48,265 bases of DNA. It comes from Conexivisphaerales archaeon. Lineage in GTDB: Archaea > Thermoproteota > Nitrososphaeria > Conexivisphaerales > DTJL01. This document shows, one piece after another, positions 17,822 through 19,808 of the stretch. How positions within the stretch are numbered: position 1 is the stretch's first letter; every line of letters begins with the position of its first letter. Position numbers and translations under genes: made by a program. Location of the stretch: NCBI GenBank assembly GCA_038728585.1, contig JAVYTR010000012.1, forward strand, positions 1-48,265, given 5' to 3'. The notes under the pieces were generated by a model. It did no database searches. It saw only the letters and a list, made by a program, of their open reading frames with translations, and had not been told where the DNA came from.

Positions 17822-19195
17822 TTGACTGAGCAGATACTAGAAATTCCCTTCGGACTTGATGGACTGCAGTCGTTTTTGCAGAGGAGAGGCCACACACTCC
17901 TGATAAAGGGATTAGCAGGGACGGGAAAGACTACACTTGCTCTGCAGCTACTTTCCGGGCTAGGAAAAGGAGAAGGCATCTATATATCGTCGAGGGTTTC
18001 TGAAGCCAAGCTGGCAAAGCAGATACCCTGGATCAAAAGGGAAAGAGCTGCAAGAGACAGCGAATTTGTAGATGTCAGGGTCGATTCTCCTGCTGCAGTC
18101 CTTGAAAGCATAATGCTGCTTGTCTATCAGAAGAAGGCCCCGGTTATAGTCCTCGATACCTGGGATGGTCTAGCTAAGGAGATGGAGCCTGTCGAGAGAC
18201 TGAGGGCAGAAAAGACCTTGACAGCGCTTGCAGATTCCTCTGAAACCAGAGTTATCTTCGTCAGCGAAGAGCCAGGGATGACCACTATGGACTATATGGT
18301 GGATGGTATAGTCGAGCTGACCAGGTCTGAAGAGCACTCAAGGGTCTTCAGAGAGATCGAGCTGAATAAGTTGAGAGGGACTTCGATAACCCAGCAGAGG
18401 TATCTGTACACACTGTTGGGAGGTAAATTCAGGCATTTTATCCCCTATACAGAGCCTGACTACAGCAGGATGAAAAAGACCAAGCCTATACCTGATTACG
18501 AGGAGGGCTATTCCTATGGTAGCAAGGAGCTTGATGAAATTCTCACTCCACTCCGCCAGGGCACATCGTTGACAATAGAATATGGAGAGGGGGTTCCTTA
18601 TTCTGCAATAAGGCTGATAGAGTATCCTCTTGTTACGAACTTCCTGAACCTGGGCAGAAGCGTTGTGATGATTCCATTACTGGGAGCCAGCGTCAGAGAG
18701 CTGCATAACCATATTTTGAGATGTGTTGACAGAGATGCTATCAGAAATAGGCTGAGAATTGCCGTTGCTTCAGAGTACGGCACGAACGGTGGTAGTGAGT
18801 TCTACAATATGGGTAGAAGCAAAGTGAGCAGAGAACACAAAAGTTATGCTGAAGAGGTCGAGAGGTTAAAGAAGAAATCCAAGGACAGACACCTTCTAGT
18901 GATTGACAGCATCAGCTTTCTGGAAAACAGATTCGCCACTGAGCTTGAGGAGCTGGTCGAAAGCCTTTCCCACAGGGTGATTCAGACTCAATCTAACGGC
19001 GATGCTGTTGTCTTCCTCCTCAATTCGTTTTCAAAGCTCAGAGATAGAATTCTTACGATGACAGACAGGCATATCAAACTGTTTGTGAAAGACAGGTCCA
19101 TCGTTCTCATGGGAGAAAAGCCAGCAACGGAAGCCTATGTGCTTCAGCCAAGCAATTCCAACCCGCTTCTACCAGAGGTAACGAGAGTGGTGTAG
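17822..19195 (+). CDS. Tandem RecA-fold ATPase, KaiC/GvpD-like
   Basis: The 457-residue protein has an intact Walker A (GLAGTGKTT, residues 30-38) and Walker B (VIVLDTWDG, about 108-116) in the first domain. A second RecA-like domain opens with YGSKELDEIL near residue 232. It has a degenerate Walker A (EYGEGVP) but keeps a Walker B-like HLLVIDSIS near 357-365. This layout resembles archaeal KaiC-family and GvpD-type regulators, in which one domain hydrolyses ATP. The start is TTG with AAGGTGG upstream. Four bases separate it from the small gene at 19200, so they are probably one transcript. The target process is unknown; gas vesicle function is not implied. Confidence 0.75.
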   Translation: MTEQILEIPFGLDGLQSFLQRRGHTLLIKGLAGTGKTTLALQLLSGLGKGEGIYISSRVSEAKLAKQIPWIKRERAARDSEFVDVRVDSPAAVLESIMLLVYQKKAPVIVLDTWDGLAKEMEPVERLRAEKTLTALADSSETRVIFVSEEPGMTTMDYMVDGIVELTRSEEHSRVFREIELNKLRGTSITQQRYLYTLLGGKFRHFIPYTEPDYSRMKKTKPIPDYEEGYSYGSKELDEILTPLRQGTSLTIEYGEGVPYSAIRLIEYPLVTNFLNLGRSVVMIPLLGASVRELHNHILRCVDRDAIRNRLRIAVASEYGTNGGSEFYNMGRSKVSREHKSYAEEVERLKKKSKDRHLLVIDSISFLENRFATELEELVESLSHRVIQTQSNGDAVVFLLNSFSKLRDRILTMTDRHIKLFVKDRSIVLMGEKPATEAYVLQPSNSNPLLPEVTRVV

Positions 19196-19199
19196 CTTA

Positions 19200-19562
19200 T
19201 TGGAGGAGATTTCATTCTTGAAAGGCAACAGAGAGGTCAGGGAGAATGCGGAACAAAGAGTTGACGGGGTGATTCTTGAATGCATCGAAAAGGCACTCGA
19301 ACCTCTGGGAGCCGTTGCCAGAGAATCAATCTTCAGGCTGTTTGAAACTAGAACTGGAATGTCCAAAAAGAAGATACCGGATAACGCAGAGGCTTTTTTG
19401 GGACACCTTGAGAACCTCTTCGGGAAACCTGCAACCAGTACTCTCGAAGCTGCTATGAAGAGGGAGATAGGCAAAAGGTTTGCCGTTTCAAACGTTACTG
19501 ATGGTAACCTGTCTTCTATAATAAAATTCCTGAAGGATAATATCAAGAAATCTGAAAGCTAG
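19200..19562 (+). CDS. Small helical protein resembling a NitrOD5 output domain
   Basis: This 120-residue protein starts with TTG, within GCTTATTGG. Its layout (a long helix ending in ALEPLGAVARESIFRLFETRTGM, then KKKIPDNAEAFLGHLENLFG and a final helix) recalls the thaumarchaeal output domain called NitrOD5, often linked to signal proteins. The match is from memory of the pattern. It is co-directional with the tandem RecA ATPase, suggesting a signalling pair. Confidence 0.45.
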   Translation: MEEISFLKGNREVRENAEQRVDGVILECIEKALEPLGAVARESIFRLFETRTGMSKKKIPDNAEAFLGHLENLFGKPATSTLEAAMKREIGKRFAVSNVTDGNLSSIIKFLKDNIKKSES

Positions 19563-19579: not shown

Positions 19580-19592
19580 AGATTTTTATAGT
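19580..19592 (+). promoter_or_regulatory. TATA-like promoter of tRNA-Ser
   Basis: GATTTTTATAG lies 25-35 bases before the first base of the tRNA at 19616, the spacing expected for an archaeal tRNA promoter. Confidence 0.5.
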
Positions 19593-19645
19593 GTATCTGT
19601 AGCGAGCAGCACAACGCCGAGGTACCCTAGCCTGGTAGGGGGCAG

Positions 19646-19665
19646 AATCAACACGAAGAGCCCAA
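19646..19665 (+). other. tRNA-Ser intron 1 (anticodon stem, non-canonical)
   Basis: This is the 20-base segment between exon ends CAG and GC. Its removal restores the fifth-pair anticodon stem CAGGC/GCCTG. Such stem introns are known in Thermoproteota tRNA genes and need the heteromeric splicing endonuclease. Boundaries are inferred from the mature fold. Confidence 0.7.
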
Positions 19666-19673
19666 GCCTGGAG

Positions 19674-19689
19674 CCAGGCATAGCTGGAC
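19674..19689 (+). other. tRNA-Ser intron 2 (position 37/38)
   Basis: This 16-base segment lies between G37 and A38 of the anticodon loop. CCAG at 19674-19677 can pair with CTGG at 19684-19687, forming the central helix of a short bulge-helix-bulge element. A one-base shift of both ends would leave C instead of G at position 37, which is less usual. Confidence 0.7.
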
Positions 19690-19808
19690 AGCCTGTGTCC
19701 GAAAGGACTCGTGAGTTCAAATCTCACCCTCGGCGCCACTTGTTTCATAGCATAGCAGAATCTTAAAGACCCTTACAATCAAATCAAAATATAGACCAAA
19801 CTATTCCT

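Follow-up and report, generated by a model that had tools for sequence, protein, structure and literature searches.

A tRNA-Ser(GGA) gene with two introns in the anticodon arm from an uncultured Nitrososphaeria archaeon

The window analysed here, a stretch of 48,265 nucleotides, is contig C12 of a 1.93 Mb genome assembled in 27 contigs. The host is an uncultured archaeon from a deep branch of the Nitrososphaeria; its Cbf5 protein is nearest to those of uncultured Nitrososphaeria/Thaumarchaeota, the best named record being 63% identical. On the forward strand, at 19616-19735, lies a tRNA-Ser(GGA) gene that has its anticodon GGA at 19670-19672 and two introns in the anticodon arm. Read from 19616, it runs GCCGAGG TA CCCT AGCCTGGTA GGGG G CAG, then 20 nt, GCCTGGAG and 16 nt, and continues as A GCCTG TGTCCGAAAGGACTC GTGAG TTCAAAT CTCAC CCTCGGC G to its end at 19735. 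Exon 1 (19616-19645, tRNA positions 1-29) holds the 5' strand of the acceptor stem, the D arm and the first three bases of the anticodon stem (CAG), and is near-identical in same-family relatives. It is followed by intron 1 (19646-19665, 20 nt) at position 29/30, by exon 2, GCCTGGAG (19666-19673, positions 30-37, with G37 at 19673), and by intron 2 (19674-19689, 16 nt) at the canonical position 37/38. Exon 3 (19690-19735, positions 38-73) provides the 3' strand of the anticodon stem, the long variable arm, the T arm, the 3' strand of the acceptor stem and G73; its limits follow from the match to the tRNA model, the spliced fold and the family alignment.

A TATA-box-like element, TTTTTATA, is located at 19583-19590 on the same strand, 26-33 nt before the tRNA begins, and a T-rich or TATA stretch is likewise placed in three same-family relatives. 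The gene cbf5 lies 1.9 kb from the tRNA gene in the host genome. Between the two (17822-19562) there are an ORF for a KaiC-like ATPase (457 aa) and one of 120 aa, for which a family match was not found. In three same-family relatives the tRNA gene follows cbf5 in the same orientation at a distance below 1 kb, and this arrangement, with the tRNA gene downstream, is seen in 31 of the 42 genomes that have both genes on one contig.

In a whole-genome search, the Rfam tRNA model RF00005 matches 19616-19735 with 35.2 bits (cut-off 29, E 8.5e-6). A serine-specific covariance model made from relatives scores the gene at 73 bits (E 5e-11), a value to be read with the gene itself being among the model's 13 member sequences. 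ARAGORN makes no call for it in the window, Rfam at default settings leaves it unreported there, and permissive Rfam settings applied to the locus gave chance matches only. The earlier note on this DNA had given the span as 19616-19738. The start stands, but the gene proper stops at G73 (19735), and the CCA at 19736-19738 may be due to chance, since it is missing from three same-family relatives.

Once the 20- and 16-base segments are removed, the minimum-energy structure is a perfect class II cloverleaf with a long variable arm (-42.1 kcal/mol). This agrees with the earlier statement that the anticodon arm forms only after both segments are taken out and, together with the RF00005 match, with the assignment to serine and anticodon GGA. 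The serine tRNAs recognised in the genome-wide search with the serine model are this gene, one at C1:220739 (GCT, also called by ARAGORN) and one at C5:101118 (TGA, assigned by inspection), and a genome search with an intron-free Ser(GGA) pattern gave no match. Neither search thus found a rival intronless tRNA-Ser(GGA) gene, and in a genome that is 99.6% complete the window gene is the sole one detected.

The placement of intron 1 at 29/30 is unique if the mature stem is taken to be CAGGC. The cloverleaf needs its removal, and homologous introns are found in 36 other genomes, which upholds the position proposed before. Its junctions lie in a bulge-helix-bulge (BHB) motif (19637-19669) of textbook, canonical form. 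The central helix GGGC:GCCC joins exon bases 19640-19643 to intron bases 19660-19663, the bulges are of three nucleotides each, AG/A (19644-19646) and AA/G (19664-19666), and the outer helix AGG:CCT pairs 19637-19639 with 19667-19669 of exon 2. Both helices are included in the predicted minimum-energy fold of the precursor. This motif and the exon-intron covariation described below are the strongest evidence for splicing, and neither had been cited in the earlier note.

Intron 2 sits in a CTGGA direct repeat, so that seven cut registers are possible from the window sequence. Six of these lead to C37 and were rejected in favour of the purine of the family alignment, and the cut at 37/38 is the only one to give a purine, G37, in agreement with that alignment. 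It can be argued that the gene and both introns are as described while intron 2 is cut in one of the other CTGGA registers (31/32 to 36/37), so that the anticodon loop would read CUGGACA and position 37 would be C, and with CTGGA on both sides the window sequence alone would permit this. However, position 37 of a tRNA is normally a purine, and the same-family relatives G001-G003, with near-identical exons and freely varying introns, have an intron 2 of 12-13 nt that lacks the extra CTGG and hence the repeat; they align with G37 or A37. We therefore consider another register very improbable. The survey presented below is not independent evidence on this point, as its pattern demanded a purine at position 37. 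Intron 2 itself, at the place given in the earlier note, is a secure assignment on the basis of the cloverleaf, the family alignment and the 37/38 intron in 51 homologues.

The splicing motif of intron 2 is, as modelled, weak and relaxed. CUGG at 19668-19671 (bases 32-35) would pair with CUGG at 19684-19687, with all four pairs formed, two of them wobbles, and with AC/A as the 3' bulge. For the intermediate, the fold of canonical geometry is about 7 kcal/mol less favourable than the predicted minimum, which contains a CCAG:CUGG helix instead. The latter had been put forward in support of the splice points; it is indeed present in the predicted intermediate fold, but conservation is lacking even among members of the family. 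The expected pairing of intron 2 has 3-4 of 4 pairs in relatives, and over the 51 homologues the expected helix has a mean of 3.16 of 4 pairs, with 4/4 in 22 of them. Imperfect 37/38 motifs are thus common in this set.

A total of 400 genomes of the class were searched with a pattern for the 3' part of tRNA-Ser(GGA), and the exons and introns of the 62 that matched were parsed. The 29/30 intron is found in 37 genomes, all of which also have the 37/38 intron, while 14 have the latter alone and 11 have neither; as the pattern demands GCCTG in the stem and a purine as base 37, and misses lineages with other stems, these counts are not class-wide frequencies. All 37 two-intron homologues have an eight-base middle exon. 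The earlier note called this exon unusual, a view that we do not retain, as it is simply what remains between introns at 29/30 and 37/38 and recurs in 37 genomes. With the architecture conserved in that many genomes, chance is excluded as its origin. One member of the set, L163 of another genome (family f9), has an intact central helix although its 29/30 intron measures 37 nt, roughly double what is usual.

The central helix of intron 1 is fully paired (4/4) in 35 of the 37 homologues and has 3/4 pairs in the other 2. Shifting the intron side by 1-4 bases lowers the mean from 3.95 pairs to at most 2.16, and shuffled introns reach 4/4 pairing in 1.3% of cases. The exon and intron strands covary: the main intron partners of exon GGGC are GCCC and GCCT, those of exon GCGC are GCGC and GCGT, and AGGC goes with GCCT, the GGGC and GCGC types each being present in several families. 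When introns were reassigned among exons, none of 20000 trials reached the observed mean pairing, in a test that ignores relatedness.

These data also bear on the idea that the locus is a decayed pseudogene with random insertions, and that another gene or tRNA reads the UCC and UCU codons. The absence of an ARAGORN call and the low score of the interrupted gene with a general model could be seen in that light. However, all stems are perfect in the spliced fold, the exons of relatives are nearly identical with variable introns, another Ser(GGA) gene was not found in the genome, and 37 genomes have insertions at exactly the two sites, with covarying helices. We give this option next to no credence. 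A single intron, with the anticodon stem built from the CAGGC at 19675-19679 that can pair with GCCTG at 19691-19695, was likewise rejected and has a negligible probability: it leaves an 11-base loop, no single deletion was found that gives a 5-bp stem and a 7-base loop, and homologues exist with the 37/38 intron alone and an uninterrupted CAGGCCTGGA.

The two-intron tRNA gene calls for a suitable splicing enzyme, and the genome encodes two EndA proteins, one catalytic and one without the catalytic histidine. The former (L001 1240-1779) has the catalytic chain of the Aeropyrum pernix enzyme as its match, with an E value of 2.5e-46, and retains both the histidine and the lysine of the active site. 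In the Crenarchaea-specific loop, its K37 is aligned with A. pernix K44, a lysine reported to be needed for broad substrate specificity (PMC6379350). The earlier note had anticipated an endonuclease of broad specificity, a requirement that we uphold. The second protein (L002 1204-1791) has a proline in place of the catalytic histidine and is, judging from its sequence, probably a structural subunit. The two would assemble together, and Thaumarchaeota have been described as having the two-subunit EndA type (PMC4090602). Both introns would almost certainly be removed by this usual archaeal tRNA-splicing enzyme.

We have little doubt, then, that this is a functional gene for tRNA-Ser(GGA), with no second copy found in the genome, whose two anticodon-arm introns would be cut by a two-subunit EndA, intron 1 at its BHB and then intron 2 via a relaxed motif. 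The computational basis of this reading is the gene with its exon structure, the covarying BHB of intron 1, and the two EndA genes; transcription, cleavage, ligation, splicing order and subunit assembly are what we infer. In the precursor, the D-stem 3' strand, together with base 27, would pair with exon 2 and with the last part of intron 1 to create the canonical BHB at 29/30, where EndA would cut. Ligation of CAG to GCCTGGAG would rebuild the anticodon stem, which could then serve as the outer helix for the cut of intron 2 at 37/38. The motif of intron 1 draws on the D-stem 3' strand, base 27 and bases 31-33, and thus shares exon nucleotides with that of intron 2. Since both motifs use the same nucleotides, and the full anticodon stem is available only once CAG has been joined to GCCTGGAG, the removal of intron 1 probably precedes that of intron 2. 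According to the authors of tRNAscan-SE 2.0, there are two- or three-intron tRNAs in which a further BHB forms only after one intron has gone (PMC8450103).

The two-intron state, mapped on a tree of Cbf5 from 54 genomes, requires at least nine changes, six of them forced by well-supported branches, compared to a mean of 15.3 with shuffled labels. The state is inherited within families and has been lost, gained, or both, several times. Both introns are kept in all four genomes of the host's family; the sampled genomes of the order's other families have the 37/38 intron alone or none. As a tentative history, to which we assign somewhat less than an even chance, the 29/30 intron would be old in Nitrososphaeria, kept by compensatory exon-intron changes and repeatedly lost, with an obligatory splicing order from intron 1 to intron 2 as the motifs compete for exon bases.

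An apparent extra intron was observed in tRNA-Ser(GGA) genes of other genomes, in the acceptor stem near 5/6 (L148-L150, L152, L160, L161 and L171), and most genes with this insert would carry three introns. In families f13, f14 and f16 the inserts resemble one another, with the sequence AAAGG...CCTTG.CAA, and possibly represent an old or moving intron. By inspection, an apparent third interruption is also seen in the D loop of L168 and L169. Other tRNAs of the host genome likewise seem, by inspection, to be interrupted at noncanonical sites (L067, L068, L105, L106 and L109), with D-arm inserts in L109, in Ser(TGA) and in a pair of Gly(GCC) copies whose inserts differ, and a T-loop insert in L068. 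A 156-nt tRNA match of the same genome without an ARAGORN call (L032 1501-1656) probably carries long or several introns.

The two-intron tRNA-Ser(GGA) is genuine, yet it adds one more ordinary example to a phenomenon already known, in a layout common to many relatives. Multi-intron tRNA genes with canonical and noncanonical introns are established in Thermoproteales and Thaumarchaeota (PMC8450103, PMC4033280, PMC3293823, PMC3218864). In the papers covered, a description of the 29/30 and 37/38 pair in tRNA-Ser(GGA) was not found, but the pair may already be catalogued. It is of practical relevance that a fast scanner, ARAGORN, overlooks the genome's only detected Ser(GGA) tRNA gene. The orthologues of this tRNA gene, which are often neighbours of cbf5, offer a well-sampled natural series of zero, one, two and apparently three introns that is useful to test intron gain and loss, splicing order and exon-intron coevolution in archaeal tRNAs.

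Compared with the A. pernix (alpha-beta)2 endonuclease (PDB 3P1Z/3AJV), the host's catalytic subunit is alike in the Crenarchaea-specific loop, its lysine, and the catalytic histidine and lysine, whereas the second EndA has a sequence that resembles the M. jannaschii chain (1A79) more than the second A. pernix chain. The tRNA-Ser(GGA) genes of other Nitrososphaeria (37 homologues, e.g. L113-L115, L130 and L149) have the same intron positions and the same eight-base exon, and many genomes share the cbf5 neighbour seen in the same-family relatives, but their introns differ in length and sequence from the host's; in several families there is the 37/38 intron alone or no intron, and some apparently have a third. 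The multi-intron tRNAs of Thermoproteales, e.g. Pyrobaculum calidifontis, and of Thaumarchaeota also combine two short introns, one canonical at 37/38 and one noncanonical, with BHB motifs, and close introns occur there too, one of which may be obliged to leave first (PMC8450103, PMC3218864, PMC3293823). The two introns of Caldiarchaeum tRNA-Thr(GGU), on the other hand, are at 24/25 and 45/46, as opposed to 29/30 and 37/38 in the tRNA-Ser(GGA) of the present host.
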